A stretch of 64,000 bases of DNA, taken from Paludisphaera mucosa (GTDB lineage: Bacteria; Planctomycetota; Planctomycetia; Isosphaerales; Isosphaeraceae). Position numbers and translations under genes: made by a program. Under the pieces are notes generated by a model that saw only the letters and a list, made by a program, of their open reading frames with translations, did no database searches and was not told where the DNA came from. Where the stretch lies: the NCBI RefSeq assembly GCF_029589435.1, contig NZ_JARRAG010000001.1, positions 1,230,808-1,294,807 of the forward strand. Reading direction: 5' to 3'. Positions 34,327 to 61,398 of this stretch are shown here, piece after piece (the first letter of the stretch is position 1; each line of letters starts with the position of its first letter).

Positions 34327-34563
34327 CGAGATCCTCGTCGAGTGACCGGGGAGCGACGTTTCCGTAGATCGAGATATCTTAGTCGACCGCGTCCGCCCGA
34401 CGCCAACGTTTCCGGTCCGAGAGACAGCCCGAGACTCGGGGGCAGTGAGTTGTTCGATAGGCGTCGGCGCGGCAGACTGAGTTCCGGATCGCATCACCGC
34501 GAGGACACGCGTCGGGGCCGCGTCCCGACGCCGTCGAGCCCTAATCCAGGAGCATCCGCCGCC

Positions 34564-45954: not shown

Positions 45955-46542
45955 ATGCGTACGCGAACGATTCTCACGGCGACGATCGGACTGATGGCCC
46001 TGCTCGCGATCGCGGCGACTTTTCGGCCCGCACGCGTGTCCCCGGCCGGCCAGCCGATCCTGGAGAAACCGAAGATCATGCCGACCGAAAACCAAGCCCC
46101 GGCGGCCGAGGTCCCCCAGACCGAGGAGGAGTGGCGAAAGAAGCTCACTCCCGAGCAGTATCACGTGGTGCGCGAGAAGGGCACGGAGCGGGCCTTCACG
46201 GGCAAGTACTGGAACCACAAGGAAGACGGCGTCTACCGCTGCGTCGGCTGCGGCGAACCCCTTTTCGACTCGGCGGCGAAGTTCGACTCCGGATGCGGCT
46301 GGCCGAGCTTCTACCAGCCCGTCGACGACGGCAAGGAAGTCAAGGAAGAGGTCGACGACAGCCTGTTCATGCGCCGCACCGAAGTCCTCTGCCGAAAGTG
46401 CAACGCCCACCTGGGCCACGTCTTCGACGACGGTCCCAACCCGACCGGTCTTCGCTACTGTATCAATTCGGCGTCGATCGACTTCGAGAAGCGCGGGGCG
46501 AAATCGGGCGATTCCGGCCCGGCCGACCCGAAAAAGCCGTAA
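45955..46542 (+). CDS. msrB: Peptide-methionine (R)-S-oxide reductase, exported
   Basis: A 195-residue methionine-R-sulfoxide reductase with an N-terminal signal or anchor (about residues 5-24), so it probably works outside the cytoplasm. The MsrB fold runs from about residue 55 to 180: Cys-Val-Gly-Cys near 96-99 and Cys-Arg-Lys-Cys near 145-148 bind the structural zinc, and Trp-Pro-Ser-Phe and His-Leu-Gly-His-Val-Phe-Asp-Asp-Gly are present. The catalytic Cys169 is in Arg-Tyr-Cys-Ile-Asn-Ser. Repair of oxidised proteins is the known role. The C-terminal tail is charged and short. It is followed by a 113-base low-GC gap and a GbsR-type regulator. Confidence 0.92.
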
Positions 46543-46580
46543 GACCGCGTCGTCGCATGGGAGGTTTCTCTTTCTTCGAC

Positions 46581-46609
46581 TTGTTCAGTCGTTTCACAGG
46601 CGGTACATT
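46581..46609 (+). promoter_or_regulatory. Possible promoter of the second GbsR gene
   Basis: TTGTTC (46581-46586), a 17-base spacer and TACATT (46604-46609) lie in a distinctly AT-richer patch. A small inverted repeat TTTC-AGTA-GAAA directly follows it. If real, transcription would start near 46616. Confidence 0.35.
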
Positions 46610-46655
46610 TTCAGTAGAAACTGTCCAACCTGACGAAGCGGTGACAATCGTGGAA

Positions 46656-47258
46656 ATGACACCTGCCGCGCAGAAATTCGTGCTCCACTGGGGCGAGATG
46701 GGCCAGGCGTGGGGGATCAACCGCACGATGGCCCAGGTCCACGCCCTCCTGTTCATCGCACCTTCGGCTCTCGACGCGGAGGAGATCAGCACGCTCCTCG
46801 ACGTCAGTCGGTCGAACGTCTCCACGAGTCTCCGCGAGCTGATCACCTGGGGCGTGGTGCGCCGGGTGCACATCATCGGCGATCGCCGCGACCGCTTCGA
46901 AGCGCTCAAGGACGTGATGGACACGTTCCGGGTCATCATGGCCGAGCGCCGTCGTCGCGAGATGGACCCGACGATCAGCCTCCTCGAACACTGCATCGAG
47001 GAGGCCAAGGTCGGCGGCGAGGCCGAGGCCTACACCCGCGAGCAACTCGAGAAGATGCTGGCGTTCACGCGGATGGTGACCGACTGGTACGGCCAGATCG
47101 AGAACCTCCCTACACCCGCCATGCTCCGCCTGTTCAAGGGCGGGACGTTGATCGCCAAGCTCTTCTCGCGTCGCGGCAAGGCCGGCAAGGTCGGCTTCGA
47201 CGCCTCCGATTCGGCCGGTGAGGCCGACGAGTTCGCGGAGGAGGCGTCCGAGCAATAA
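46656..47258 (+). CDS. GbsR/MarR-family transcriptional regulator
   Basis: A 200-residue winged-helix regulator homologous to the one at 15567-16142. The core is Phe-Val-Leu-His-Trp-Gly-Glu-Met-Gly-Gln-Ala-Trp-Gly-Ile-Asn-Arg-Thr-Met. The recognition region Leu-Asp-Val-Ser-Arg-Ser-Asn-Val-Ser-Thr-Ser-Leu-Arg-Glu-Leu and wing Trp-Gly-Val-Val-Arg-Arg-Val follow, then a longer C-terminal tail that ends acidic. The frame is open to an ATG at 46557. The first 33 codons of that longer version have low GC at third positions, unlike any neighbour, and look like promoter sequence. I therefore take ATG 46656 (or GTG 46650). It lies downstream of msrB and converges on the envelope operon. Confidence 0.8.
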   Translation: MTPAAQKFVLHWGEMGQAWGINRTMAQVHALLFIAPSALDAEEISTLLDVSRSNVSTSLRELITWGVVRRVHIIGDRRDRFEALKDVMDTFRVIMAERRRREMDPTISLLEHCIEEAKVGGEAEAYTREQLEKMLAFTRMVTDWYGQIENLPTPAMLRLFKGGTLIAKLFSRRGKAGKVGFDASDSAGEADEFAEEASEQ

Positions 47259-47272: not shown

Positions 47273-48835
47273 TCAGGGCGTATCCGCCCTGGGCGCGCCG
47301 GGCTTGTCGGCGTCTCGCACCGGCGCCTTCTGCTGGGCCTCGACCTTCGGCTCGGCGGACTTCTCCGCCCCGGGAGGCGGCAAGGGCGGGGCCTCCAACT
47401 TCTTCTTGGTGGCCGCCTTGGCGTCGGCCTGTTCCTTCTTCTTGTTGCTGAGCGCCTCGGCGAATGCCAGCGAGGCGTCCTCGCCAAGATAGCCGTCGAT
47501 CAGGCCCTGGAGTTCGTCGAACTGGGCCTGGAGATGCCGCGTCAGGACCGTCGTCTTGGTGGACTCGTAAGAGAGTTTCGTGGCCTCCTCCTTGAGCTTC
47601 TTGAGGGCGTCGCCGAACGATGCAGGGGCCGGCAGCCGCTCGTACTGTTTGAGTAGCTCCTGGAGCCCGGACCAGTCCTCCCCCTCCAGACGCGACTGCA
47701 TCAGGCGTTCGAGCCTGCCCCGCATGGCGACCTGGTCGACGATCCCGTCGCGGAGGGCGTCGAGCTGAACCTGGTATCTCGAGGCCAGCGGCAGCGGGTC
47801 GACGGCGATCTCGCGTTCCTCGACGCTCTCGCCCGGCATGATCGGGAACTCGGCGAGCGGTTCGGAATCGCCGGCCAGCAGGCGTAGCTTGACGACCGAG
47901 CGGGTCGGGCCGGGCTCGACGAGGATCCGGCCCGAGCGGTCCGTCATGCCGACGTTGCGGACTGGCCCGTCGGGTGCGGGCCGCTCGGTGAGCGTGTAGC
48001 CGGCCGCCGGGGCCTTGGTCGTCTTGTCGACGAACCGTAGGTGGAGCGCCGAATCGCCCGCCTTGATCCCGAGCGCCGCCAGCGTGTTGGGCCGGGAGAT
48101 CCGCTGCGACAGGGGGTCGCGGAACGCGCTCAGGATCGCGCACCGCGCGATCGAGCCTTCGATGGATTCGGCCGCAAGGTAAGTGAAGGCGATCCGGGTG
48201 ATGCGAACGGTTTCCTCCTTCGTCGTGACGAGTCGGATGGGGATGAACGTCGTCCCCTTGGCGACCACGGCCCCGAGTTCGCTGGCCGCCGTGATGGCCG
48301 CGCCCTGAACCTTCAGCAGGGCCCGGCCGCCTTCCTGGCCGACGATGAGCGCCGACGGGCTGAAGAGGTCGATCGTGAAGAGGAAGAAGGTGCGCGGCGC
48401 GTCCATCGGCGAGAGGGCCTGGCGGCGCTGGAGCGGCCCCAGCCAGCGGGTAGCCGCGTCGTACTCCCTCCCCGAGAAGACGAGTGCGTCGTCGTCCCGG
48501 TCGACGTCGACCCAGATGAGCCAGGCCTTGTCGAACGAGGGGTCGAAACCGGCGAGGTCCTCGGCCTTCAGGCGTTCCAGCCCTTCCCCGACCAGCGGGC
48601 TCGGCGTCTCGGCGAGCTGAACCGACCACGCGGGGCCCACGAACCGCCGGACCATCTCCGACCATCGCGCGACCAGTTCGTCGCGCCGGCCCGCATCGAG
48701 TCGCGCGGCGGAAGCCGAGGCGAGGTGGATCGCGATCCTGTAGGGCCGATTTTCGAGCGGCGGCGGGGTCTCCTGAGTTCGTCCGACTCCGGACGTCGCG
48801 AGCAGAAGCGCCAGGAAGGCTACTCGCTCGACCAC
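47273..48835 (-). CDS. Exported protein with C-terminal coiled coil, hypothetical (last gene of envelope operon)
   Basis: A 520-residue protein. GTG 48835 opens a signal peptide (Val-Ala-Phe-Leu-Ala-Leu-Leu-Leu-Ala-Thr) and overlaps the preceding gene by 16 bases, so translation is coupled. Residues about 25-200 form an alpha/beta-like region with Ala-Trp-Leu-Ile-Trp-Val-Asp-Val-Asp. A beta-rich segment with Gly-Tyr-Thr-Leu-Thr-Glu and Asp-Arg-Ser-Gly-Arg-Ile (about 275-350) resembles an Ig- or carboxypeptidase-regulatory-like fold. Residues about 375-465 are helical and coiled-coil prone, and the last 55 are Lys/Ala/Pro-rich. I recognise no family. It is probably periplasmic, and its position suggests it works with the FHA and SBP-type proteins upstream. 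Confidence 0.7.
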   Translation of the reverse strand: MVERVAFLALLLATSGVGRTQETPPPLENRPYRIAIHLASASAARLDAGRRDELVARWSEMVRRFVGPAWSVQLAETPSPLVGEGLERLKAEDLAGFDPSFDKAWLIWVDVDRDDDALVFSGREYDAATRWLGPLQRRQALSPMDAPRTFFLFTIDLFSPSALIVGQEGGRALLKVQGAAITAASELGAVVAKGTTFIPIRLVTTKEETVRITRIAFTYLAAESIEGSIARCAILSAFRDPLSQRISRPNTLAALGIKAGDSALHLRFVDKTTKAPAAGYTLTERPAPDGPVRNVGMTDRSGRILVEPGPTRSVVKLRLLAGDSEPLAEFPIMPGESVEEREIAVDPLPLASRYQVQLDALRDGIVDQVAMRGRLERLMQSRLEGEDWSGLQELLKQYERLPAPASFGDALKKLKEEATKLSYESTKTTVLTRHLQAQFDELQGLIDGYLGEDASLAFAEALSNKKKEQADAKAATKKKLEAPPLPPPGAEKSAEPKVEAQQKAPVRDADKPGAPRADTP

Positions 48836-51342
48836 GGGTCTTTGGCGATCCACGGCGCGATCTCCCAGTTTTCCAGGCCTTGATAGAGGCGGTCGGCCGA
48901 CTCGGCGGGACCTTTCAGTCGCGACCGCCAGGCGTAGTGGTCGCCGAGCTGCCAGAGCGGGATGACCGGCAGCTCGTCGCGAAGCTCTCGATCGATCTGC
49001 GTGGCCAGCCCCCGCGCCGTGGGCCATTCGGCCGCCTGTTCGAGCTGTAGCAGGAGCTGCAGGATCCGCGGGCTGGCGGCCGAGGCCAGGGCGTTCGCCG
49101 ACGGGGGCGCGTCATAGCCCGGGCAGATCATCAGCCCGGCGTCGAGGACGGGCTCGTCGCATCGCAGGACGCGGTAGGCCATCTCGAACTTCCGCCCGGC
49201 CCGCAGCTCGGACTCCAGTCGGGATTGCGGGACCTCGACGGGGACGACCTCGATGCGGGCCAGGCGAAACGCCTCCACGAGCCGGGGGACGACGGCCTCG
49301 ACCTCGGCGACCGCGGGATATTCGAGCTTGAGCTTGATCGCGTCGGCCTTGATCTCGCCCTTGGCGAGCGAGGCGAGCGCCACGGCCAGGACGGGGTTGT
49401 ATTCCAGCGGCTTGACCCCAGCCGCGTCGGCGTTGCCGCCCCGAGGGAAGACGCCGTCCGCGGGGAAGTCGGGATCGGCGGGCGGGCGTTTGAGGATGGT
49501 CTCTTCGAGCAAGAGTTTCCGATCCACGGCGTACGAGATCGCGCGCCGGAGCGTCCGATTGCGGAGGGCCGGCGATCGGCCGTCGAGCGCCAGCACGTGC
49601 ACGGCGGGCTGCGCGAACTTGCCCACCCCGACGCCCGACGTCGCGGCCAGTTTGGCCGCCTGATCGGGAGGAACGTGGCCGAGAAGGCTGACGTCGCCTC
49701 GCAGGAACGCGGCCAGCGCCGCGGCCGGGCGATCGTAACGGACCTCGCGAATCCGACGAACCTTGCCCCCCGCCGCGCCGCCCGAGGCGTCGGCCGCGGC
49801 CCGCAGGTCGGTCGATTGGGGCGACGAGTCGAAGCACACGAAAGGCCCCGACCCCACGAGCCGACGTTCCTTGGCCGAGACGACGACCCGCCCGTCGATC
49901 CCGGCATGGGCCGCCGCCACCGGGCCGTCCAGCCAGAAGGCCGCGTTGAGCAGCGGCCGCTTCAGCTTCAGCTCGACCTGATGCTCGTCGATCGGCTGGA
50001 CCTTGTCGAGGAGGTCGGCCCAGCGCGCCTGATATTTGGAGGCGTTGCGTGGGTCGCAGCGGTCGATGAGCGTGCGGGCGACGTCGATCGCGGAGACGTT
50101 TCGTGAGCCGTCCGACCAGGGCACGTTCGGCCGCACGCGGATCACGAGGCGGCGGCCGAGGTCGGTCGACTCCAGGGCCTCGGCCAGCTGGCCGGGACGC
50201 TCGCCGCGACGGGACTCGTCCGAATCGTCGGCGAGGATCGGCCGGAAGAGCAGGGGGGCGACCCGGTCGTCGGCCGGGGATCGGTCCCACGGACCGACCG
50301 GCGATGCAACGTCGACGACGGCCACGTCGAGGGTCGGCTCCGCCCCGAACGCCCTGGCGTACTCGGCGTCGAGGCCCGCCTGGGTCGGCCAGATCCTCAG
50401 GGCCTCGACCAGGGCGTCGAGCCGCTCGGCGTTCGTGCCGTCGCCGACCCGCGCGGCGCGGGCTTTCGCCATCTCCTGAAACTTGGCGCGTAGGTCCTTC
50501 GCCTGGCGGACGTCGGCCGCCACTTCATCCAGCTCGTGGAGCAGGCGACGGCCCTCGGGATACAGCCCGAGCCCGATCGCGTTCTCGATCCGTCCGGAGT
50601 AGGCGGCGGCGAACTGGTCGACGAGCCCGGGGTAGTCGGGCTTCCGCGCGTGCAGCTCGCGCAGGAGGCGCAGGCCCCGGGTGACGTCGCCGTCGCCGAG
50701 CGCCTGCTTCCCCTCGGCGAGCAGCAGCGCATGGACGCGATCGGCGAGGCCGGGCCATTTGGGATCGCGTTGCTGGACCCGGAGGAAGTGCTCGAAAGCC
50801 CGCGTGTAGTCGCGGGCGAGCTGCAGCCGCTCGCCTTCGGCCAGCAGGATGTCCTCGAAGTACTCGACCTTCTTGAGATGCCCGCGCTTGATCTTGAAGT
50901 CTCGGGCGTCGCCGCGGCCCGTCGCGGCTTCCTCGGCCAGATGCACGGTGATCTGCGAATCGGGGCTGTTCGGAGCTTCCTTCTTGGCGTCGGCCGCCTC
51001 GAACTTGCTGGGCTCGCCCGGCAGGCCGATGTTGCCTTCGAGGGGAATTTTGGGGCCCGTCCCGCGGCCGCGCGCCGGGGACGATTTGGGGATCTCCAGG
51101 GGCGGCAGCGGCCGCGGGCTGACCGGCTCGACGAGGATGACCGAATCGTCGAGCAACGTGAGTCGGTCGAACGGGAAGGATCGTAGGAGCTCCCCTGGCG
51201 CCACCACGCCGGCCGGCCGCGCGCCGTCCTGGGCGGGTGACGCCGTTATCACGGCGACGAGCAGGATGAGGCTCGTCGACGTTGCGAGGGCCGAACGTCG
51301 CGTGCGATGGCGGGATCGGAGGCGTTCGCCGTTCGGCGTCAT
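48820..51342 (-). CDS. TPR protein fused to an extracellular solute-binding (family 5) domain
   Basis: An 840-residue protein. An N-terminal hydrophobic segment (about residues 20-40) after a basic start is a signal or anchor. Residues about 45-150 are Pro-rich and acidic, residues about 160-290 carry tetratricopeptide-like helix pairs (Ala-Arg-Asp-Tyr-Thr-Arg-Ala-Phe-Glu-His-Phe), and residues about 330-835 resemble the peptide/nickel ABC substrate-binding family (SBP_bac_5). That region has Asp-Gly-Ser-Arg-Asn-Val-Ser-Ala-Ile-Asp-Val, Ala-Ile-Ser-Tyr-Ala-Val-Asp-Arg-Lys and a final Leu-Trp-Gln-Leu. No permease or ATPase gene is nearby, so a transport role is unlikely. Its ATG overlaps the FHA gene stop (ATGA). 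Confidence 0.8.
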   Translation of the reverse strand: MTPNGERLRSRHRTRRSALATSTSLILLVAVITASPAQDGARPAGVVAPGELLRSFPFDRLTLLDDSVILVEPVSPRPLPPLEIPKSSPARGRGTGPKIPLEGNIGLPGEPSKFEAADAKKEAPNSPDSQITVHLAEEAATGRGDARDFKIKRGHLKKVEYFEDILLAEGERLQLARDYTRAFEHFLRVQQRDPKWPGLADRVHALLLAEGKQALGDGDVTRGLRLLRELHARKPDYPGLVDQFAAAYSGRIENAIGLGLYPEGRRLLHELDEVAADVRQAKDLRAKFQEMAKARAARVGDGTNAERLDALVEALRIWPTQAGLDAEYARAFGAEPTLDVAVVDVASPVGPWDRSPADDRVAPLLFRPILADDSDESRRGERPGQLAEALESTDLGRRLVIRVRPNVPWSDGSRNVSAIDVARTLIDRCDPRNASKYQARWADLLDKVQPIDEHQVELKLKRPLLNAAFWLDGPVAAAHAGIDGRVVVSAKERRLVGSGPFVCFDSSPQSTDLRAAADASGGAAGGKVRRIREVRYDRPAAALAAFLRGDVSLLGHVPPDQAAKLAATSGVGVGKFAQPAVHVLALDGRSPALRNRTLRRAISYAVDRKLLLEETILKRPPADPDFPADGVFPRGGNADAAGVKPLEYNPVLAVALASLAKGEIKADAIKLKLEYPAVAEVEAVVPRLVEAFRLARIEVVPVEVPQSRLESELRAGRKFEMAYRVLRCDEPVLDAGLMICPGYDAPPSANALASAASPRILQLLLQLEQAAEWPTARGLATQIDRELRDELPVIPLWQLGDHYAWRSRLKGPAESADRLYQGLENWEIAPWIAKDPWSSE

Positions 51343-54300
51343 GGCCTGGTCTCCGAGGTGCGTTCGAGGCGGAGCGGTTGGAGGACTCCCCGGCCCGAGG
51401 GGACCAAGACGTCGGGCCCGACGGCGATCAGCCCGCCCACCGGTTGGACGCCGAGGTCGATGGCCGCGACCTCGCGTCCGTCGGCGATCGCCAGTCCGCG
51501 GGCCCGGCCGGCGCGGTCGACGACCCACAGGACGTCGTCGCGGATGAGCGGTGCGCCCACCGCCGGAACCCCCAGCGAGGTCGACCAGGCCCGACGGCCG
51601 TCCCGCTCCAGCAAGAGCACGCCGCCGGCGGCGTCGAAGGCGACGACGCGGCCGTCGACGGCGTGGGGGGGGCCCAGGAGCGGGGCGTCGAGTTTCCACG
51701 AGCCGATGGGGCTGAGGTCGCGGCCGGCCAGCGCGCGAATCGAGCCGTCGGCGGTCGCCACGATCACGGCCGTGCCGGTGCAGGCTGGGTCGGCGAGGAG
51801 GTGCTGATCCAGGGACGTTTCAGCCTCTGCGACGATCCTCCGCACGGGGGCCGCCTGGACGACGAGGCGTCGGATCCGACCCGCGTCGTCCGCCAGCACG
51901 GCCGACTCGGCGTCGAGGGCGGCGGGCGCCAGCCACCGTCCGCCGCGCTCGCGCTCGAACTCGGGGACCAGCGGCTCGGCGGCCGACTTCCCCGTCAACG
52001 GGTCGATCAGGTAGGCGCGTCCATCTTCGCCGGGGATCAGGAGCCCGCCCGACCAGGGGAGAGGCGTCGTCGCGAGGCTCGAGGGTAGCTCCGTGGCGTT
52101 CCAGCCTCCGACCTCCTTCGGATCCTCCGCCCAGATTTCGGTCCCTCGCGCTTCGGGGACGATCACCGATATAGTCTTCCCGTCCTGCGTCACGGTCCGC
52201 AGCCGCCCGTCGGGCGCGCGGGGGTCGCCGGGCTTGAGGAGGAGCGCCGAGACGAATCCCCCGCCTTCGAGGTCGGAGCGTGCGATGCGGATGCGGCGAC
52301 CGGCCCGATCGACCCCTTCGAGGCCCTGGCCGTCCGATGAGGCGATGAGCGGCGTCGGCCAGGCGGCGCCGACGACCGTGGCCCAATCGGGCTTGCCGCT
52401 CGACGGGTCGATCCCGCGCAGATCCACGCCGCCGCCAGGCGATTGGGTCGAGACGATGATCCGCCGTCCCGCCGACTGCACGGGCGCGGCGGCGACGCCG
52501 AGGTCGCCCAGCAGGAAGCGGCTGGTCAGCTTGCCCCCCTCGGAGTCGAGATCGTAGCGGCCGCTGCGGCCGGCGGCCACCCAGACCTCGCGCCCCGACG
52601 TGGCGAGCCCGAAGGCCGGGCCCGAGGCCGTCGCGTCGGGGCTCGATTTCGCCAGCGACCTTAGGGGGTCGGCGCTGGCGTAATCGCCGGCGGCGAAGAC
52701 CTCCATGCCACCGCGATCGCCGATCGCCCAGATCGACGAGCCCGAGGAGGGGGGGGCGTCCCAGGTCCAGCCCGGAAGATCGATCGACTGCACGGCCCGC
52801 GGCTTCGCCCCTTCCTCGTCGAGCACCAGGATGCGCCAGCGGCCGTCGCGGATGCGGTCGTTCTCGGCCACGATGAGGAATCGGCCCAACCGCGCGGGGG
52901 GGCAGGGGATCGCGCCCTCGCTGTGGCCCAGGTACTGGACGTCGACGCAGGCGAGCGGATCGCGGGCGATGGTGAAGAGGCAGTCTTTCCGGCCCATGAC
53001 GTACAGGAAGCGGCCCGACTCGTCGCCGACGGGGCTGCGCGTGACGGGGAACGCAAGGTCGACGGCCGCCTCCACCTCGCCCGTCGCCAGGCCGATCACG
53101 AGCAGCCGGCCCGCGGGAAGCGTCTGGTAGACCTGCTCGCCGAGGACCAGCGGCGGGGCGTCGACGGCCTCGCCCAACTCCTGCCTCCAGATCAGGCGGC
53201 CGGTGCGGGCGTCGCGACGCGTCAGCTCGTTGCGGCGGGCGTCGACCGCCAGGACGCTCGGGTCGCCGGGGACCGGAGTCGGCGTGAAGGGCGAGGCGAG
53301 CCCCACCGAGGTCCGCCAGAGGGGCGCGCCCGAGCGACCGTCGATCGCGTAGGCCGACCCGTCCGCGACCGCGAAGACGACCCCGTCGGCGGCGGTCGGA
53401 GCCCCGGGGGCGTCGGTTCTGGACCGCAGGACGAACGTGGTCGGCGGCCCGAGCGGGTCGGGCCGTTCCGTCGTCTCGGCGGGCCGACGGGACGGATCGA
53501 TTCTGGCCGCCTGACGCATCAGGTCGTTGGCCCGCACCATCCGCTCGACGAGCTGCGGATCCTTCGACAGGTCGCCGTAGGTCTGCAAGAGCGCGTCGCG
53601 CGCCTTGTAGACCCGCGAGGCCGACTTCTCCTCGATCGCCTTATCCATCGCCGCCAACGTCTTCAGCCTCGTCTCGGCCTTGCGGATCGCGGCCCGCGCC
53701 TCGTTGAGCACGCCGGGCAGGCGCGACTTCGTGAGGAAGGCCGGCGCCGAGTCCCCGGCGATCCGCGCGTGCAGCGGGATGGCGGACTCCGCCTCGGCGA
53801 GCGCCTTGGCGTTGACGTCGCGCTTGGCGCGGTCGGCCAGGCCCTCGCCGATGCGGATCGTGAGGTCGGCCAGCTCCGATTTCTCGTCGCGGAACTCGGG
53901 CAGGTCGCCCACGGTCTCGACCATCTCGCGGGCCGCATCGAGGGCGCTCGACCAAGTCGCGCCGGAGACCGCGATGTACTGCCGGACGTTTGCGAGCGCC
54001 CGCAGCGTCCTCGCCTTGCCGACGCGAGGGTCGGCCGGGTTTTTGGCCACGAATGCGTCGAAGTCGCGGATCGCGGTCGCTTTGTCGCCGTCTTCCATCA
54101 GCTCGATGGCGTGGTTGTACGTCCGCGAGGCGATCGTGCGGGCGATGATCGCATTCAGCCAGAAGCCCATCCCGACGAGCACGCCCAGCAAGGCGACGAG
54201 GGCCAGGACGGTCGGCGAGGCCGCGACGACCTCGCGGCCCGGTGCGTCCTCCGCCTCTCGCGCGCCCCGCCAGCGGGCGAACAACCGGGCGATGGGCCCC

Positions 54301-54860
54301 GGCCCCTTCGGTTCGCGGCCTCGACCCCGGACCTCGCCGCGCTTCGACGTAGCGACCTCGGGCTCCTCGTCGGGCGGGATCTCGATGACGTCGTCGAGGA
54401 AGTCGTCCTGATCGAAGACCGAGGGTCGTCGTTCAGGCGTTGTCACGACGACGGGGGCCTCGATGGAGGACATCGGCACCGCGCCCTGGAAGACCTTCGT
54501 GGCCTCTTCCTCCTTCGCGGGCCTTCGGCGTTTTTTCTCGGACCGCGACGGCGCCTCCGCTTTCGGGGCGTCGAGCGTCAGGACGAAGAGTCGGCAGGGG
54601 CCGATGGTCAGCTCGTCGCCCTGATGCAGGGTGGCGGAGACGATCTTCCGGCCGTTGACCTCGAGGAACTCGGCGTCGGGCGAGGCGTCGACCTTGAAGC
54701 GGCGCCCGCGCCAGCGGATCCGGCCGTGGACCGGGAGGATCCCCCCGCCCTGCAGGACGATGTCGCACGAGGCGGCGGAGCCTAGCAGGACGGGGTGCTC
54801 CCGATCCAGCTCGACGAGGCGGACCTTGCCGGGTCCTTCGTGGATTTCAAGAGTGGCCAT
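51339..54860 (-). CDS. FHA domain - transmembrane - beta-propeller (PQQ-like) protein
   Basis: A 1173-residue single-pass membrane protein. An N-terminal FHA domain (about residues 1-95) has Leu-Gly-Ser-Ala-Ala-Ser-Cys-Asp-Ile-Val, His-Gly-Arg-Ile and Leu-Glu-Val-Asn-Gly. The usual Gly-Arg is Gly-Ser here, so phosphothreonine binding is uncertain. A charged linker (95-205) leads to a transmembrane helix at about 212-236. Helical repeats (about 240-415) follow, then a PQQ-type beta-propeller from about 465 to the end with Asp-Gly-Arg-Ser-Gly-Ala-Pro-Leu-Trp-Arg-type blades. The FHA lies in the cytoplasm and the propeller outside. It is 36 bases after the preceding gene and overlaps the next by four. 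Confidence 0.85.
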   Translation of the reverse strand: MATLEIHEGPGKVRLVELDREHPVLLGSAASCDIVLQGGGILPVHGRIRWRGRRFKVDASPDAEFLEVNGRKIVSATLHQGDELTIGPCRLFVLTLDAPKAEAPSRSEKKRRRPAKEEEATKVFQGAVPMSSIEAPVVVTTPERRPSVFDQDDFLDDVIEIPPDEEPEVATSKRGEVRGRGREPKGPGPIARLFARWRGAREAEDAPGREVVAASPTVLALVALLGVLVGMGFWLNAIIARTIASRTYNHAIELMEDGDKATAIRDFDAFVAKNPADPRVGKARTLRALANVRQYIAVSGATWSSALDAAREMVETVGDLPEFRDEKSELADLTIRIGEGLADRAKRDVNAKALAEAESAIPLHARIAGDSAPAFLTKSRLPGVLNEARAAIRKAETRLKTLAAMDKAIEEKSASRVYKARDALLQTYGDLSKDPQLVERMVRANDLMRQAARIDPSRRPAETTERPDPLGPPTTFVLRSRTDAPGAPTAADGVVFAVADGSAYAIDGRSGAPLWRTSVGLASPFTPTPVPGDPSVLAVDARRNELTRRDARTGRLIWRQELGEAVDAPPLVLGEQVYQTLPAGRLLVIGLATGEVEAAVDLAFPVTRSPVGDESGRFLYVMGRKDCLFTIARDPLACVDVQYLGHSEGAIPCPPARLGRFLIVAENDRIRDGRWRILVLDEEGAKPRAVQSIDLPGWTWDAPPSSGSSIWAIGDRGGMEVFAAGDYASADPLRSLAKSSPDATASGPAFGLATSGREVWVAAGRSGRYDLDSEGGKLTSRFLLGDLGVAAAPVQSAGRRIIVSTQSPGGGVDLRGIDPSSGKPDWATVVGAAWPTPLIASSDGQGLEGVDRAGRRIRIARSDLEGGGFVSALLLKPGDPRAPDGRLRTVTQDGKTISVIVPEARGTEIWAEDPKEVGGWNATELPSSLATTPLPWSGGLLIPGEDGRAYLIDPLTGKSAAEPLVPEFERERGGRWLAPAALDAESAVLADDAGRIRRLVVQAAPVRRIVAEAETSLDQHLLADPACTGTAVIVATADGSIRALAGRDLSPIGSWKLDAPLLGPPHAVDGRVVAFDAAGGVLLLERDGRRAWSTSLGVPAVGAPLIRDDVLWVVDRAGRARGLAIADGREVAAIDLGVQPVGGLIAVGPDVLVPSGRGVLQPLRLERTSETRP

Positions 54861-54896
54861 GGGGCGTCGGCCGCCTCCGGTGGGGGGCGTCTTGAG

Positions 54897-55856
54897 TCAT
54901 CGGAGCGTTTCCTGCGCGACCACCTTGAAGTCGTAGCCACCGCCCTTGGGGACGACCGCGAACCGCGACACCCGGATCTCGGCCGGCGTGCGGCCCCGGT
55001 AGCGCTGTTCCAGCTCGGCCAGCCGCTGCTCGACCTCGGGGGGGTAGAACTGGAAGACGGTCCCCTCGCCGACCTCGATCCCCGCCTTGCGGAGCAGGAC
55101 GATGTCCGAGGCCTTGCGGGCCCGCCCCTCCCATATGAAGTAGAGTCGGCCCTCGCCGCCGCTGCCGCCGTTGCGGCGGGTGGGGGTGGGGCTGGAGAAG
55201 TTGGATGCGTAGACGAGCTGGTCCTTGCCCGACACGACGGCCAGCTCGACCCCCAAAGCGTCGAGCTGGCGGGCGTATTCCTCGGGGCGCTGGCCTTCCG
55301 GGTAGATGATGCTCCAGCGGTTCTCGCGGCTGACGCCGCCGTCGCCGGGGCCGAAGCCGAGGCCCGGGCCGCCCGTGCCGACCTTGGAGGCCCGCCGCCC
55401 GGTCGCCACGGCGCCGCCGTTGGGCATCGCCGCGCCCACGTCGACCTCGGCGATCGCCTTGCCGGCCTCCAAGGCCGCGTCGAGCATCGCGCCGGGGGTG
55501 GTCTGGACCGAGGGCTGCTCGAACTCGCCGGGCGTCTCCTCGTTGTTCGAGGCCACGGCCGCGGCGTCGGCCCCGGCGACGTTCACTTTCTCCGTCGACC
55601 CCGCCGTGCCGTCGGGCGAGCCCCCGCCGCCGCCGAAGACCTCGACGATGTGCAGGGGCGAGGTCACGCGCGAGGCGAACTCCTGATTGCTGACGAAGAT
55701 CAGGGCGAGCCAGCCGACGACCAGCAGCGCCCCCATGACCACGGCCATCAGGAACGACGTGACCCGGTCGTAGCGCGACTCGCCCAGCACGCGAGGCTCG
55801 CGTCCGACTTTCGGCTTCGATTCGACGGCTTCGAGGGGAGGGGCGGAGACGCTCAT
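54897..55856 (-). CDS. Single-pass membrane protein with periplasmic domain, hypothetical
   Basis: A 319-residue protein with a cytoplasmic N-terminus of 33 residues, one transmembrane helix (about 34-56) and a long Gly/Ala-rich low-complexity linker (about 70-175). A compact C-terminal domain (about 185-315) begins Ser-Ile-Ile-Tyr-Pro-Glu-Gly and contains Leu-Gly-Val-Glu-Leu-Ala-Val, Tyr-Phe-Ile-Trp-Glu-Gly and a basic stretch. The layout is like ExbD/TonB-type energy-transducing or scaffold proteins, but I see no TonB-box, and no ExbB homologue lies nearby. ATG 55856 overlaps the stop of the cyclase-repeat gene by four bases, so it belongs to the operon. Its function is unknown. Confidence 0.75.
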   Translation of the reverse strand: MSVSAPPLEAVESKPKVGREPRVLGESRYDRVTSFLMAVVMGALLVVGWLALIFVSNQEFASRVTSPLHIVEVFGGGGGSPDGTAGSTEKVNVAGADAAAVASNNEETPGEFEQPSVQTTPGAMLDAALEAGKAIAEVDVGAAMPNGGAVATGRRASKVGTGGPGLGFGPGDGGVSRENRWSIIYPEGQRPEEYARQLDALGVELAVVSGKDQLVYASNFSSPTPTRRNGGSGGEGRLYFIWEGRARKASDIVLLRKAGIEVGEGTVFQFYPPEVEQRLAELEQRYRGRTPAEIRVSRFAVVPKGGGYDFKVVAQETLR

Positions 55857-57499
55857 GGCTTGCCTCCCGCGGGCGGGCTCGCCGTCGCCGGCGCGTCGGC
55901 CGAGGTGGAGTCGAGCGGGCGGACGGCCTCGTACCACGTCCGCCACGCTTCGGCCGCGGCGCGTTTCCGCTCGGCCGTCGCGCCCGGCTCCGGGCCGGGG
56001 CCGTCGATCTTGCGGGCGATGAGCTGGAGGCCCTGTCGCGCCGCGGCTACGACCCTCTCGTCGCCGTCTTCGAGCGCCTTGATCAGGTCGGGGGCCGCGT
56101 CGAGGTCGCCGCTGCGCCCGAGCGCCCACGACGCGACCTCGCGCAGGCCGGCGTCGCGGGACCGGAGCATCCGCCGAAATCGGTCTTTATGGGGGCGGAG
56201 CGCGACGGGGCCTTGCTTGCGGTAGCGGTCCAGGATCCCGGCGACGGCCGTGTCGGCGTCGGCGATCCGGGGGTCTTCCAGCACGTCGAGCATGCCTTCG
56301 ACGGCCCCGTTCATCGGCCGGCTGATGATCCGCCCCCCGGCGACGGTCATCGTGGTCAGGTCGCTGGGGAGGTAGCGTCCGCCCAGGAGCGTCCCCGAGC
56401 CCAGCTTGCGCGAGTCCAACCGTTGGAGGGATTTCTTGGTCGAGCGGGTCAAGAAGAGAATCGCCCAGACGGTGGTGACGTCGTCGCTGTAAGGCGGGTA
56501 GGTCCACGAGCCGTCGGGCCGTTGGCTGCCGCGGATGTACGCGGCCCCCTTCGCGAACCAGTCGATCCGGCCGATCGCCTCGCGGTCGGACAGCGAGCCG
56601 ATCCGCTCGATGCCGTAGAGGCCGTAGAACATCGACTTGCCGAAGATCTTGGTGTCGGCGGTGCTGAAGTTCGAACCGATCCAGGTCATCCCGCGGGCGA
56701 TGGACGCGTTGATCTGCGCGAGGCTGGAGGCCGGTTTGTAGTCGGCCCGCGGGCCGTTGTCCTCGACCGGCGTGAGGTAAGGGTTGAGGCCCTTCTGGAA
56801 GCTCCGATAATTCTCGAGCTGGCGGCGGCAGATCAGGAGGCTGCCGACGCCGGCGGCGGTCATCGAAATCGAGTCGGCGTCGTTCTCGTCGCGGTGGTAG
56901 TTCCAGCTCCCCGCCGAGCTCTGCACCGACATGTACCACTGCGCGGCCCGGTCCCAGACCGAGGGAGGGACGGCGACGCCGTTGTTCTCGCATTCCCAGA
57001 GCCCCAAGATTGCGTACTGGGAGATCGACGCGTCGCCGTGGGGCCGAGGGTCGTAGTCCCAGCTTCCGTTGGGCTTCTGCTTGCGCTTGAGATATTCGCC
57101 GATCGTCTCCAGCAGGCTGCCGCGCTCGGCGGTCTCGAGGTTGGACAGGGCGAGCGCGACGGCGGCGGCCTCGTAGATGTCGAAACCCGCGTTACGCTCG
57201 GCCTTGTAACCCCCGCTCACGAACCGGGAACGGATTTTGGCCAGGCAGGCGGCGAGCGCCGGATCGGTGACGGGGGTTTCGGCCTTGAGCAAACCCAGCG
57301 CGATCATGGCGGTCTCGCCGACCTGCCTGCCCGCATACGCCCGTTGCAGGTACTGGACGCCGGCGAGGACGGCCGGCTCTTGTTGCTGCGGTTGGGCCTG
57401 CTGGGGCTGGGCGCGGGCGGTCGGCGGCGCGAGGGCGGCCAGGGCCGGGATCGCGCAACAGGCGAGGGCGACGGCGGCGAGTCGTGAGGTCGTGAACAT
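55853..57499 (-). CDS. Exported squalene-cyclase-repeat protein with HEAT-like tail (first gene of envelope operon)
   Basis: A 548-residue exported protein with signal peptide 1-28 (Ala-Thr-Ala-Arg-Ala-type end) and a Gln-rich stretch just after it. Residues about 45-400 are prenyltransferase/squalene-oxidase repeats, with Asn-Gly-Ser-Trp-Asp-Tyr, Ala-Gly-Ser-Trp-Asn-Tyr and Asp-Gly-Ser-Trp-Thr-Tyr in successive helix pairs. No DxDD acid motif of true squalene-hopene cyclases is seen, so a binding or structural role is more likely. Residues about 445-500 are HEAT-like. ATG 57499 is used; GTG 57508, three codons earlier, is possible. It begins the five-gene series to 47273. Confidence 0.82.
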   Translation of the reverse strand: MFTTSRLAAVALACCAIPALAALAPPTARAQPQQAQPQQQEPAVLAGVQYLQRAYAGRQVGETAMIALGLLKAETPVTDPALAACLAKIRSRFVSGGYKAERNAGFDIYEAAAVALALSNLETAERGSLLETIGEYLKRKQKPNGSWDYDPRPHGDASISQYAILGLWECENNGVAVPPSVWDRAAQWYMSVQSSAGSWNYHRDENDADSISMTAAGVGSLLICRRQLENYRSFQKGLNPYLTPVEDNGPRADYKPASSLAQINASIARGMTWIGSNFSTADTKIFGKSMFYGLYGIERIGSLSDREAIGRIDWFAKGAAYIRGSQRPDGSWTYPPYSDDVTTVWAILFLTRSTKKSLQRLDSRKLGSGTLLGGRYLPSDLTTMTVAGGRIISRPMNGAVEGMLDVLEDPRIADADTAVAGILDRYRKQGPVALRPHKDRFRRMLRSRDAGLREVASWALGRSGDLDAAPDLIKALEDGDERVVAAARQGLQLIARKIDGPGPEPGATAERKRAAAEAWRTWYEAVRPLDSTSADAPATASPPAGGKP

Positions 57500-57905
57500 G
57501 AGCGTCACCGATGGGCCGACGGTCGATCTGGGGGGTCGGCGAGAATGGCCATCCTAAGATTCTAACGTCCGTCCCCGCGGATGACTCGCCGTCGCCGAGG
57601 TTTTTCAAAGTTTCGGCCCCGGCGACCTCCGGCGGCGCCGCTTCCGACTGGTCAAGGGGCCCGCATCCTGATACAACATTGCTGCGCGGAGGGTCCGGAA
57701 CGAAAACCGAGCGGGGGCGGGACGCCGACCCGGCCTGCATCGGTCGGGAGCGGGCGTCCGCACGGGCGAAGGCCGTCCTCTCCCCCTGGGTCGGCCGCCC
57801 GACGTACCGCGCACCACCTCTCCCTTGGCCAGCGCCCCGTTCCCACGCGCCCAGGTACGTGGGGTTGTCGACCATCGCGCACACCCGGTCCGCCGATTCC
57901 TGCCC
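57500..57905. other. Divergent intergenic region, no gene seen
   Basis: This 406-base region holds the promoters of the envelope operon (minus strand) and of the ATP-grasp cassette (plus strand). No repeat, RNA or supported ORF is visible. A low-GC patch at about 57592-57615 and one near 57668-57680 are the best places for promoters. Confidence 0.5.
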
Positions 57906-59420
57906 ATGCAAGCGACCCACTCGGATGAAAGCGCCGCGCTGTTCAGCGGCTACAAACTCGCGTCGTACGACGAGCTGTTCGGGCCGGACCGCACCCCGAG
58001 GCCGCATTACGCGCCGCTGTACGACCGCCTGATCAAGCTTGGGCCCGACGAGATCGAGCGCCGCCACAAGGTGGCCGACCTCACGATGCGCAACCAGGGC
58101 ATCACGTTCACCGTCTACGGCCGCGACCAGGGGGTGGAACGGATCATCCCGTTCGACCCGATCCCCCGCCTGGTCTCCGCCGCCGAATGGGACGGGATCG
58201 AGCGCGGCCTGAAGCAGCGCGTCCGGGCCCTCAACCTTTTCATACGCGACGTCTACCACAATCGTTCGATCCTGAAGGATCGCGTGGTCCCCGCCGAGCT
58301 GATCTTCGGGGCGTCGGGTTATCGCCGCGACTGTCTCGGCCTGCGGGTGCCCAAGGACATCTACATCCACGTCTCGGGGATCGACCTGATCCGGGACGCG
58401 GCCGGCGAATATCTGGTCCTCGAGGACAACTGCCGCACGCCGTCGGGCGTCAGCTACGTGCTCAAGAACCGCCAGGTGATGAAGCAGATCTTCCCGTTCC
58501 TGTTCACCGAGTACAACGTCCGGCCCGTCGACGACTACACCGACAAGCTGCTCTCGGTCCTTCGCTACATCGCCCCCGACGGCTGCGACGACCCCACGGT
58601 CGTCGTGCTGACGCCCGGCATGTACAACTCGGCCTATTACGAGCACAGCTTCCTCGCCCGCCAGATGGGGCTCGACCTCGTCGAGGGCCGCGACCTCGTC
58701 TACGACCGGGGCCAGATCTTCCGACGCACGACCCGGGGCCTGCAGCGCGTCGACGTGATCTATCGCCGGCTCGACGACGACTTCCTCGACCCCCTGGCCT
58801 TCCGGCCCGACAGCATCCTCGGCGTCGCCGGCCTGATGGGCGCGTATCGCGCCGGCAACGTCGGCATGGCGAATTCGCTGGGGACGGGCGTGGCCGACGA
58901 CAAGGGGATCTATCCCTTCGTCCCGGACATCATCAAGTATTATCTCGGCGAAGAGCCGATCATGAACAACGTCGAGACCTATCGGCCGCTCGTCCCGTCG
59001 CACCGGCAGCACATCCTCGAAAACCTGGAGAAGCTCGTCGTCAAGGCGGTGGACGCCTCGGGCGGATACGGGATGCTCATCGGGCCGGCGTCGACCAAGG
59101 CCCAGCGCGAAGAGTTCCGCCGCAAGATCGAGGACAACCCGCGCGGCTACATCGCCCAGCCGACCATCCAGCTCAGCCGCCATCCCACATTCATCGACGG
59201 CAGGCTCGACGGCCGCCACGTCGACCTCCGCCCCTTCGTCCTCTACGGCGAGGACGTTTTCGTCCTGCCCGGCGGCCTGACCCGCGTGGCCCTCCCGGAA
59301 GGCAGCCTGGTCGTCAACAGCTCTCAGGGCGGGGGCACGAAGGACACCTGGGTGCTCCACGGGTCCGGGGCCGACGGCCGCCGCGCCCCGGGACGGCCGA
59401 CCCCCGAGGAAAGGTCCTGA
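57906..59420 (+). CDS. Circularly permuted ATP-grasp peptide ligase-like protein
   Basis: A 504-residue protein of the circularly permuted type-2 ATP-grasp family (DUF404/407), proposed to ligate amino acids or peptides with ATP. Visible features are Gly-Ile-Thr-Phe-Thr-Val-Tyr near residue 63, Pro-Phe-Asp-Pro-Ile-Pro-Arg near 83, and the ATP-grasp-like Val-Leu-Glu-Asp-Asn-Cys-Arg-Thr-Pro-Ser-Gly-Val-Ser-Tyr near 175. Gly-Gly-Tyr-Gly-Met-Leu-Ile-Gly-Pro lies near 385, and the closing region has Ser-Ser-Gln-Gly-Gly-Gly-Thr-Lys-Asp. ATG 57906 begins the conserved part. Its stop is followed by the ATG of the alpha-E gene one base later (TGAGATG), so the two are translationally coupled. Confidence 0.92.
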   Translation: MQATHSDESAALFSGYKLASYDELFGPDRTPRPHYAPLYDRLIKLGPDEIERRHKVADLTMRNQGITFTVYGRDQGVERIIPFDPIPRLVSAAEWDGIERGLKQRVRALNLFIRDVYHNRSILKDRVVPAELIFGASGYRRDCLGLRVPKDIYIHVSGIDLIRDAAGEYLVLEDNCRTPSGVSYVLKNRQVMKQIFPFLFTEYNVRPVDDYTDKLLSVLRYIAPDGCDDPTVVVLTPGMYNSAYYEHSFLARQMGLDLVEGRDLVYDRGQIFRRTTRGLQRVDVIYRRLDDDFLDPLAFRPDSILGVAGLMGAYRAGNVGMANSLGTGVADDKGIYPFVPDIIKYYLGEEPIMNNVETYRPLVPSHRQHILENLEKLVVKAVDASGGYGMLIGPASTKAQREEFRRKIEDNPRGYIAQPTIQLSRHPTFIDGRLDGRHVDLRPFVLYGEDVFVLPGGLTRVALPEGSLVVNSSQGGGTKDTWVLHGSGADGRRAPGRPTPEERS

Positions 59421-59421
59421 G

Positions 59422-60375
59422 ATGCTCAGCCGCGTCGCCGAAAGCCTCTACTGGATGGGCCGCTACATCGAGCGCGCCGAGAACGTCGCCCGCCTGCTCG
59501 ACATCGGCCTGTTCATCGAACTCGACGCCGACCTGGGCGGCGGCGAGCGGTTCTCGCCCGTCGAGATCGCCCTGACGATCCTCGCCTGCCGCGACGCCTT
59601 CCCGCTCGACGTCGAGGCCCCCTCGCGGGACGCCGTGCTCCGCTTCCTCACCTTCGACCGCAGCAATACGCAGTCGATCCTCAGCATGATCGCCCGCGCC
59701 CGCGAGAACGCTCGCGGCACCCAGGAGGCGATCGGCGTCGACGTCTGGAGCGAGGTCAACCGGTTGTACCTCTTCCTGGGCGGCACCCGAGCCCAGCGCA
59801 AGTTCGTCCGGGGCCCATCGAGCCTGCTCAACACCATCAAGAATTCGTGCCTGCTCATCGACGGCATGATCCAGAACACCCTGCCGCGCGACGAGGTCTA
59901 CCATTTCCTGGAGCTGGGACGGCACCTCGAACGTCTCGACGTCCTGTGCCGGATCCTCCGCGCCAAGTGTCCCATCTTGACCCAGCAGGTCGAGGGGACC
60001 GAGGCCGCGATGCAACTGGTGCGCTGGACGAGCCTGCTGCGGAGCTGCTCGGCCCACGGCCCGTTCCTCCGCTCCGAGCGCGAGCGCGTCGAGCCCGAGG
60101 GGGTCATCCGCTTCCTCGTGCTCGACCCCGAGTTCCCCCGGTCGATCCGCTACAGCGCGGCCCGCTGCCAGGAGTCGCTCGAGTCGATCTCCGGCGGCGA
60201 CGACGACGCCTACGGCTGCGAGGCCGAGCGGATCCTCGGCCGCCTCGAGAGCGACCTCCGCTACCTCGACGTGGAGGAGATCTTCGACCGCGGCCTCCTC
60301 CGCTTCCTGGATTCGCTCCAGCACACCTGCCACCGCGTCAGCGACGAGATCCAGCGCTCCTTCTTCCTGATGTGA
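59422..60375 (+). CDS. Alpha-E domain protein
   Basis: A 317-residue all-helical protein of the alpha-E (DUF403) family, which almost always accompanies the circularly permuted ATP-grasp protein. The N-terminal hallmark Val-Ala-Glu-Ser-Leu-Tyr-Trp-Met-Gly-Arg-Tyr-Ile-Glu-Arg-Ala-Glu-Asn is at residues 4-20. It is followed by many Arg/Glu helices and a conserved His-Leu-Glu-Arg near 170. The biochemical role is not established; it may help bind the ATP-grasp product or its carrier. It overlaps functionally and by position with the genes on both sides (1-base and 27-base gaps). Confidence 0.92.
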   Translation: MLSRVAESLYWMGRYIERAENVARLLDIGLFIELDADLGGGERFSPVEIALTILACRDAFPLDVEAPSRDAVLRFLTFDRSNTQSILSMIARARENARGTQEAIGVDVWSEVNRLYLFLGGTRAQRKFVRGPSSLLNTIKNSCLLIDGMIQNTLPRDEVYHFLELGRHLERLDVLCRILRAKCPILTQQVEGTEAAMQLVRWTSLLRSCSAHGPFLRSERERVEPEGVIRFLVLDPEFPRSIRYSAARCQESLESISGGDDDAYGCEAERILGRLESDLRYLDVEEIFDRGLLRFLDSLQHTCHRVSDEIQRSFFLM

Positions 60376-60402
60376 ACCGAACGCCGAGGGGGCCGAACCG
60401 AT

Positions 60403-61398
60403 ATGCTGCTCCGCGTCCAGCACGAGACCAAGCTGACCTACTCGAACGACGTCTCCGAGACCGTCTTCGAGGCCCGCATGGGCCCCCCGTCCGAGGAAGA
60501 CCAGACCTGCCTCGGCTATCGCCTGCGGATCACCCCCGGCGCGCCGGTGACGGTCTACCAAGACGGCTTCGGCAATCGCGTCGACCTGTTCAACGTCTAC
60601 ACGCCCTACCGCGAGCTGCTGCTGCGGGCGACCAGCGTCGTCCGCACCCACCGGGCGGCGGGCGGGCCCAAGCTGGCCGAGATCCCCTTCGAGCCCGAGT
60701 CCGAGGAATTCCAGGCGGTCGACGCACTCGAATACCGGCTCCCCAGCAAGCTCGTGAACCACAGCCCGGAGATGACCAGCTTCCTGGAGAGCATCCCCCG
60801 GCCGAAGGGCTCGGTCCTCGACGTCGTCGAGCAGCTCATGTCGGCCACGCGGTCGCGGCTCGTCTACGAGAAGAAGGTGACGTCGTCCCGGACCCCCGTC
60901 AGCGAGGCCCTGGCGCTGGGGCGCGGCGTCTGCCAGGACTTCGCCCATCTGTTCCTGGGAGCCTGCAGGGGCTTCGACCTGCCGGCTCGTTACGTCAGCG
61001 GATACATCCACGAGCCCGGCGAGATCGCCACCCACGCCTGGTGCCAGGTGTGGGCCGGCCGCAACGGCTGGGTCGACGTCGACCCGACCCGCGGCGAGAT
61101 CGTCGGCGACGACTACGTGCGCATCGCGCTCGGCCGCGACTACGTCGACGTGCCGCCCAACCGAGGCATCTACCGCGGCCAGGCCGACGAGTCGATCAGC
61201 GTTGCGGTGAAGGTCGAGCCGATCACCCGCATGCCGACCGACTGGGGCGAGTGGTCCGAAGGCTCCGACGCCCCCTGGTCGGCCGCATCCTGGATCCAGT
61301 CGGAACGCCAGTCCCAGCGCGGGCGGATGACCCAGATGCAGTCGCAGTCGCAGGCGAACTTCCGGCAGCAGCAGGGCCAGCAGCAGCAACCGGACTGA
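60403..61398 (+). CDS. Transglutaminase-like cysteine peptidase
   Basis: A 331-residue transglutaminase-fold protein. An N-terminal beta-rich domain (about residues 1-110, with the Thr-Lys-Leu-Thr-Tyr start of the bacterial transglutaminase N domain) is followed by the catalytic domain. The triad is Cys177 (Gly-Val-Cys-Gln-Asp-Phe-Ala-His), His211 (Thr-His-Ala-Trp) and Asp227 (Val-Asp-Pro-Thr). The last 30 residues are Gln-rich. In this conserved cassette the peptidase is thought to process the peptide conjugates made by the ATP-grasp enzyme. No signal peptide is present, so it acts in the cytosol. It ends ten bases before a convergent glycosyltransferase gene. Confidence 0.92.
   Translation: MLLRVQHETKLTYSNDVSETVFEARMGPPSEEDQTCLGYRLRITPGAPVTVYQDGFGNRVDLFNVYTPYRELLLRATSVVRTHRAAGGPKLAEIPFEPESEEFQAVDALEYRLPSKLVNHSPEMTSFLESIPRPKGSVLDVVEQLMSATRSRLVYEKKVTSSRTPVSEALALGRGVCQDFAHLFLGACRGFDLPARYVSGYIHEPGEIATHAWCQVWAGRNGWVDVDPTRGEIVGDDYVRIALGRDYVDVPPNRGIYRGQADESISVAVKVEPITRMPTDWGEWSEGSDAPWSAASWIQSERQSQRGRMTQMQSQSQANFRQQQGQQQQPD

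Follow-up and report, generated by a model that had tools for sequence, protein, structure and literature searches.

The window analysed here is the whole 64,000-nucleotide stretch of Paludisphaera mucosa DNA. It is part of contig C1 in a genome of 8.2 Mb (G000) and holds five consecutive envelope genes, named G1 to G5 in transcript order, which are the subject of this text. Translation of the open reading frames (ORFs) placed all five on the minus strand, from 57499 down to 47273. G1 (55853-57499) codes for an exported protein in which squalene-cyclase-like alpha/alpha repeats are followed by HEAT repeats at the C-terminus. G2 (54897-55856) encodes a candidate force transducer with a membrane helix, a disordered linker and a globular C-terminal domain. 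G3 (51339-54860) combines a cytoplasmic FHA domain, one membrane helix, a weak TPR-like stretch and a PQQ (BamB-type) beta-propeller. The product of G4 (48820-51342) is exported and carries a weak TPR stretch and a family-5 (peptide/nickel type) solute-binding domain. The exported G5 protein (47273-48835) was modelled with a FlgT/TolB-N-like part, a transthyretin/CnaB-like domain and a helical part.

Stop and start codons overlap by 4 bases between G1 and G2 (55853-55856) and between G3 and G4 (51339-51342), and G4 and G5 overlap by 16 bases (48820-48835), with the G5 start at a GTG at 48835. These coordinates and translations agree with the initial annotation, which had described five serial minus-strand genes with overlaps of 4, 4 and 16 bases. 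G2 and G3 do not overlap: 36 bases on the same strand (54861-54896) separate 54897 from 54860, and in many other families this junction holds ExbB, ExbD1 and ExbD2 (about 2 kb). Median junction distances in other genomes were +6 for G1-G2 (n=17), +19 for G3-G4 (n=30) and +37 for G4-G5 (n=28), with start codons chosen by script and L086 and L088 left out. Because short or overlapping same-strand junctions recur in other genomes, the arrangement exceeds chance, and chance adjacency was ruled out by the recurring order and the class-wide presence. Promoter- or terminator-like sites were not found on the minus strand between 46900 and 58000, which is a weak test in a genome so rich in GC. The five genes look co-transcribed, and a stoichiometric complex of their products, as initially predicted, is plausible.

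Motor genes at the G2-G3 junction

For comparison of gene order, 77 named loci were found via G2, one of them without a G2 ORF, using search patterns that miss another family of Planctomycetia, labelled f82. The gene next after G2 in the other 76 was ExbB (33 loci), ExbD1 (3), G3 (28) or none of the eight genes of the set (9), and a contig end followed in 3; G1 lay upstream of G2 in 60. At the three ExbD1 loci, the reading frame of ExbB either escaped detection or is located inside. Loci with at least 45% identity to the window's G2 (L158-L182; 25, one cut) were treated as the window's type and taken as Isosphaeraceae (f1) by identity; they were not each confirmed as such, and three are titled Kuenenia. 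In this type G3 follows G2 directly in 24 of 24 readable loci. Outside it, the commonest order is G1-G2-ExbB-ExbD1-ExbD2-G3-G4-G5, and motor genes (ExbB or ExbD) follow G2 in 36 of the 49 readable named loci. The initial annotation had raised the question whether ExbB/ExbD-like genes adjoin the operon elsewhere; these 36 loci answer that they do, and the unit of five genes that it described gives way to one of eight genes in many other families.

A further 40 loci were chosen for a match to G4 or G5, so that the other genes count as evidence there where they are present but not where they are absent. G2-ExbB-ExbD1-ExbD2-G3 stand in line in 19, and two have ExbB-ExbD1-ExbD2-G3-G4 with no G2. 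At seven of the eight Isosphaeraceae loci among the 40, G2 adjoins G3 with no trio; at the eighth (L064), G1-G2-G3 lie about 19 kb off (L245). Two loci were read in the order G1-G2-G3-ExbB-ExbD1-ExbD2 (L201, 10547-17067; L203, 7327-13764), with a diverged ExbB (tree branch 1.33). Genome G329 has two tandem G2 copies upstream of ExbB-ExbD-ExbD (L074, 12924-15073, minus strand).

The two ExbD genes differ in kind. The transmembrane Asp motif was detected by regular expression in 16 of 21 ExbD1 and 19 of 21 ExbD2 proteins, and it is also kept in the ExbD2 of G000. The ExbD2 N-terminus is a CxxC-CxxC (zinc-ribbon-like) stretch in 19 of 21 operon copies (e.g. L020, 3219-4508). This part of the gene has been swapped, and the second ExbD of Isosphaeraceae and f82 has a different N-terminal stretch there, GYF-like by eye (e.g. 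L150, 8643-9809).

Searches with PF01618 and PF02472 found an ExbB-ExbD-ExbD set elsewhere in all six Isosphaeraceae genomes tested; the moved trio of the window genome lies at G000:C2, about 5134600-5137200. The PF01618 listing had 55 matches; 30 of these were taken up as loci and scored with a profile of the operon ExbB, one of them without a hit. The moved ExbB scored 186-209 bits in 6/6 f1 genomes, other ExbB hits read in the same six genomes 54-89 bits, and hits in G181 and two f82 genomes 17-97 bits. An IQ-TREE phylogeny of 60 ExbB rows, built after seven others had been dropped (four duplicates, three fragments), placed 30 operon and six Isosphaeraceae sequences on one side of a 100/99 branch and the 24 others on the opposite side. 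Profile scores and tree together show the moved Isosphaeraceae trio to be the ortholog of the operon motor. For exbB and exbD of Rhodopirellula baltica (RB12053, RB12055), not mapped to this operon, salt induction is described in a passage of PMC2754498. The main text of a Planctopirus essential-gene paper (PMC10632474) does not mention ExbB, ExbD, Tol, FHA or squalene.

Predicted structures and domains of the five proteins

For G2, hydropathy gave a single helix (29-61). The AlphaFold2 (AF2) model, built from 52 sequences, gave a membrane helix at 28-61, disorder at 63-172 and a compact domain at 177-317. The end domain has mostly high values of the predicted local distance difference test (pLDDT), and the mean is 66.6 because the linker lowers it. 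In this model G2 shows a topology of the TonB/TolA type. Pfam domains were not found in G2, and the model gave no meaningful match in the PDB (Foldseek best E 0.08; VIA-align best Z 3.2), which does not in itself show a new fold. Neither a vWA nor a TolA/TonB fold was among the listed hits, although such a list cannot exclude vWA. Assignment of G2 to TonB was tried and rejected: there was no TonB_C Pfam match, and hhalign against three planctomycete TonB_C domains gave a probability of 0.14%.

Distant relatives of G2 were also read in f82: a G2 match was found in 26 of the 32 genomes drawn, and all 26 were read (G225 at one of two places). Five were aligned and have the end domain in common. 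A His is present in the membrane helix of 22 of the 26, and the residue four places before it is Ser in 10, Thr in 5 and Ala in 7. Ser-x3-His is the spacing of the TonB/TolA membrane motif. An SHLS motif of the TolA/TonB membrane helix is described in a passage of PMC12204202. In 8/26 genomes G2 is convergent with ExbB/ExbD/ExbD, and a ninth has only ExbD nearby. On these alignments and gene orders, the f82 His and the motor neighbours link G2 to the force transducers. G2 rows outside f82 have Ser at residue 34 in 46/52 and Ala at residue 38 in 44/52. Two f82 loci have a weak G5 match (39 and 16 bits) at a distance of about 3-4 kb from G2 and the trio (L267, 526-2328, and L275, 1198-3024, both minus strand).

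In G3, Pfam matches to PQQ_2 (1.5e-23) and FHA (2.9e-06) were both over the cut-off, hydropathy gave one membrane helix (209-243), and weak YfiO matches accompany the weak TPR-like stretch. For the cytoplasmic part, N-terminal stretches of 450 residues were scanned from 28 named G3 proteins that do not belong to the window's family type. Ten have FHA, one (L194) has a Ser/Thr kinase, and 17 have neither at E 0.001. In the kinase-bearing G3 of L073 (7173-11603, plus strand) and L194 (12910-17403, plus strand), FHA is replaced before the helix and propeller. Each is a single stop-free ORF with VAxK and HRD motifs and a helix near residue 530-560, and the remainder matches the G3 profile with 1137 and 843 bits, respectively. 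Since FHA or kinase is absent from 17/28 while the remaining G3 is kept, phospho-signalling looks like a changeable input and not part of the core. The signalling across the membrane from FHA to propeller that the initial annotation suggested has a footing here, as an input that varies between lineages.

The AF2 model of G5 (36 sequences) has a mean pLDDT of 90.0 and a predicted template modelling score of 0.78. In it, residues from about 30 to 258 form the FlgT/TolB-N-like part, those from about 260 to 346 make up a transthyretin/CnaB-like domain, and 349-481 are helical; no hydrophobic stretch in G5 exceeded the hydropathy threshold. The top Foldseek matches were FlgT (3w1e, E 5.3e-08) and 8z5n (LPHT ring, E 5.6e-08), both with probability 1.00. 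VIA-align aligned 201-205 residues to 8z5n (Z 8.6, root-mean-square deviation (rmsd) 9.0) and to 3w1e (Z 7.9, rmsd 11.0), and 114 residues to Acinetobacter baumannii TolB (7mx5, Z 7.9, rmsd 3.3); Chlamydia CT253 also reached Z 7.9. Its top row was CorA over the helical part (348-467, Z 10.5), which may mean little for helices, and residues 260-346 matched transthyretin/CnaB-like domains. A FlgT-like fold of two consecutive domains is present in G5 by prediction, and the high rmsd against FlgT fits two domains that would be set differently. A Pfam scan of the window protein gave no convincing match, and FlgT is absent among the 24 families matched by any of the 36 G5 members at E 10.

The Pfam matches of G1 to HEAT_2 (1.5e-05) and SQHop_cyclase_N (1.8e-04) were both below the cut-off, and its N-terminus is hydrophobic by hydropathy (residues 4-28). 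G4 likewise has a hydrophobic stretch at its N-terminus. Its SBP_bac_5 match (2.8e-29, residues 385-667) was over the cut-off, its TPR match was weak, and its PDB relatives are family-5 and agrocinopine binding proteins. A linked permease or ATPase of the ATP-binding cassette (ABC) type was not found in a scan of nine other window genes, of which eight lie no more than about 5 kb from the operon, and by-eye inspection of a number of other sets recognised no ABC or outer-membrane receptor genes around them. The protein descriptions of the initial annotation were thus upheld for the FHA domain and propeller of G3 and the solute-binding domain of G4; the cyclase/HEAT repeats of G1 and the TPR of G4 are weak, and G5, which had been described as a coiled coil, is in the model a folded multi-domain protein.

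Distribution and genomic surroundings

Profiles were searched in 148 genomes of the class Planctomycetia, 135 of them good. G2 matched 135 of the 148 and 124 of the good ones, and G5 matched 132 and 120, respectively. G4 matched 131/148, some of these matches being weak and lying in plain solute-binding proteins. By hand count, G2 and G5 were both present in 129 genomes, both absent in 10 and one missing in 9, an association that kinship inflates. In a phylum-wide draw of 199 genomes, G2 was found in all 12 class members (judged by listing order) and in one of the 187 genomes outside the class, there as a weak match to a different stretch; a G5 search with a single sequence found 11/199. The initial annotation had proposed a search for a conserved neighbourhood, and gene order proved to be kept across much of the class. 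The set is split at L064/L245, L246 and L247, G1-G2 stand alone at L223-L225, L227, L231, L233 and L234 (Pirellula-like loci among them), and the set is dispersed in f82; tight coupling is therefore not required. At one of the split operons (L247, genome G228), a stand-alone FHA-looking gene is convergent with G2 (7265-7936, plus strand).

Other genes of the window were assigned with Pfam. Divergent from the operon, at 57825-61398 on the plus strand, lie genes for circularly permuted ATP-grasp, alpha-E and transglutaminase-like proteins, a trio common in bacteria. Convergent at the downstream end, at 45955-47258 on the plus strand, are a SelR (MsrB-type) protein and a MarR-type regulator; a regulator-like ORF, recognised by eye, also adjoins G5 at L062 (2643-3356). 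At 29896-36468 on the minus strand, one open frame of 2190 codons contains an amidohydrolase domain near 1371-1697, preceded by more than 1300 residues with no Pfam family match at E 0.01.

Interpretation and relation to known systems

We consider it reasonably probable that the five genes are the Isosphaeraceae form of an ExbB/ExbD-driven trans-envelope machine of the class Planctomycetia. On the best reading this machine would be Tol-like in its working and would not itself belong to Tol-Pal, its function being predicted. The motor would be an ExbB/ExbD-type complex with two kinds of ExbD that pulls or turns G2 via its membrane helix. The end domain of G2, set off from the helix by a disordered linker of about 110 residues, would act on partners in the periplasm, of which the likeliest would be G5 with its TolB-N-like part or G3 with its propeller/TPR part. 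G3 would also act as the scaffold in the inner membrane, and its phospho-signalling input from the cytoplasm (FHA or kinase) would be changeable. G4 may bind a peptide or a ligand derived from the cell wall, and G1 may be a periplasmic docking protein. The likely task would be an energy-driven link between the inner membrane, the cell wall and the outer membrane, in place of Tol-Pal.

Several observations weigh against such a machine. The motor genes are unlinked to G2 in the window's family. Other ExbB/ExbD sets occur in the same genomes, so that the operon-type motor is a putative partner of G2. Neither the G2-trio-G3 nor the G2-G3 order is found at 11 of the 40 loci (L068, L077-L082, L084-L086 and L088, with contig ends and f82 genomes among them), and none of the eight genes stands beside G2 at 9 of the 76. 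In the tree, the f82 ExbB proteins tested (L156, L157) are placed apart from the operon clade, on long branches that drew a warning, and the trio beside G2 in f82 may be a different one from the operon motor. Outside f82, a helix His occurs in only 2 of 52 G2 rows, both times near the helix start. Since the helix His is lacking there, any contact of G2 with a motor must differ outside f82, and for the lineage of the window the missing His is the main point against a classical motor contact. Nor is the G2 end domain TonB-like (the same hhalign probability of 0.14%). The likeness of G5 to FlgT is one of fold only, with template modelling scores of 0.18-0.28, rmsd of 9-11 and Z near the tool's middling level, and no match of G5 to FlgT or TolB was found at sequence level in Pfam or among PDB sequences.

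A more far-reaching version of the machine is tentative, and we hold it to be doubtful as a whole. Planctomycetia would have replaced Tol-Pal by their own, separately assembled ion-driven machine, in which G2 would be a new transducer family with a new end-domain fold whose motor-contact His was lost outside f82. The TolB-like function would be divided between G3, as the propeller scaffold in the inner membrane, and G5, as a ring protein like FlgT; the motor would be gated from the cytoplasm by the lineage-variable FHA or kinase. The machine would drive outer-membrane coupling in a division that proceeds without FtsZ.

Other functions were weighed on the same evidence. TonB-like uptake, in which the motor would energise the outer-membrane passage of a peptide or oligomer caught by G4 in the periplasm, is unlikely. 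The clear SBP_bac_5 domain of G4, with its family-5 and agrocinopine-binding PDB relatives, speaks for it, as does the absence of TonB_C from 10/14 genomes, so that another transducer could serve; no ABC part or outer-membrane receptor was seen in the eight small flanking window genes, or by eye around a number of other sets, and the mostly single-copy, class-wide presence fits housekeeping better than one substrate. It is also quite unlikely that the set is chiefly a signalling device, with the FHA or kinase of G3 coupled to sensing by the propeller and G4, and ExbB/ExbD as mere neighbours or effector. FHA and a membrane helix in the window's G3, FHA in 10/28 N-termini from other families, and a Ser/Thr kinase in one ORF with helix and propeller at L073 and L194 would fit such a device. 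Against this, 17/28 G3 N-termini do without FHA or kinase at E 0.001 with the remaining G3 kept, and neither the trio between G2 and G3 nor the transducer-like character of G2 is accounted for.

We attach little probability to an apparatus for the assembly or export of outer-membrane or surface proteins, in which a BamB-type propeller and YfiO/BamD-like TPR (both in G3) would work with a FlgT-like ring (G5). It is suggested by the PQQ_2/BamB match and the weak YfiO matches in G3, and by FlgT, which a passage of PMC7990780 describes as part of the Vibrio H ring. The PQQ_2 and TPR matches are generic, however, and nothing in the set was recognised as a beta-barrel, a secretin or an export ATPase. 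Unlike the outer-membrane lipoproteins BamB and BamD, G3 has a membrane helix between its cytoplasmic and periplasmic parts. That the genes merely form a conserved neighbourhood, with envelope genes of separate function under a shared promoter and no common machine, is very improbable. The split sets at L245, L246 and L247 and the lone G1-G2 pairs of Pirellula-like loci speak for it, but where the set is dispersed most of its parts are still encoded in the same genome (as profile hits for G2 and G5 show in f82), and G2 stands beside ExbB/ExbD/ExbD in 8/26 f82 genomes.

The set bears on how Planctomycetes hold and constrict their outer membrane. Occurring across the class, in genomes in which TolB was not detected, it brings together an ion motor and a transducer-like protein with TolB-N/FlgT-like and propeller proteins, and it is a concrete candidate for the missing Tol function that makes the question testable by deletion in a cultured species. 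A survey (PMC8871954) includes passages in which Planctomycetes are described as being without FtsZ and their Tol-Pal system as largely reduced. Among 14 planctomycete genomes, TolB_N (PF04052) was found in none, with Escherichia coli, Caulobacter and Bacteroides controls positive. TolA (PF06519) was likewise found in 0/14, with a narrow model for which only E. coli was positive among 14 controls. No Pal/OmpA match was found in the five window proteins and nine flanking genes, and OmpA-type domains occur elsewhere in 13/14 genomes. TonB_C was detected in 4/14, none of them among the six Isosphaeraceae.

In comparison with Tol-Pal (TolQ-TolR-TolA-TolB-Pal-CpoB), the set is alike in having ExbB/TolQ- and ExbD/TolR-type motor genes linked to a transducer in many families. 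In both, a conserved group of genes combines a beta-propeller, TPR stretches and a TolB-N-like domain with a protein that crosses the membrane once and has a linker and an end domain. The present set differs in its two different ExbD genes, in a G2 end domain with no listed TolA/TonB fold match, in a propeller of PQQ type that is tied to the inner membrane in G3, with the TolB-N-like part in G5, and in having no Pal and additional cyclase-repeat and solute-binding proteins. With TonB-ExbB-ExbD it shares the motor family, the transducer topology and, in the helix of 22/26 f82 relatives, Ser/Thr/Ala-x3-His, whereas G2 has no TonB_C, the set has no TonB-dependent receptor and there are two ExbD genes. 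FlgT of the Vibrio H ring resembles G5 in fold over about 30-258, and both go with ion-driven stator-type motors. The two differ in that G5 has no FlgT match in Pfam or PDB sequences and has transthyretin-like and helical domains, and the set has no flagellar genes.

A named system of this composition was not found in the open-access literature (most subscription papers and all preprints lie outside this scope), nor was a link between FlgT and TolB, so that the statement of the initial annotation that it knew of no such system stands within that literature. Nearest are the vWA force transducers reported in 2025, which occur in Planctomycetes beside tolQ and two unlike tolR genes (PMC12204202). 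They differ from the present set in that their end domain has the vWA fold, none being listed for G2, and in that the set of this study has cyclase-repeat, FHA/kinase-propeller, solute-binding and FlgT-like proteins as partners. The vWA transducers of Planctomycetes-Verrucomicrobia-Chlamydiae (PVC) bacteria and the present set are alike in the unlike tolR pair, the TPR gene, the TolA/TonB topology and the end domain that is not TolA (PMC12204202), and the set described here would extend these families of force transducers by a further one, with an end domain for which no fold match was listed.

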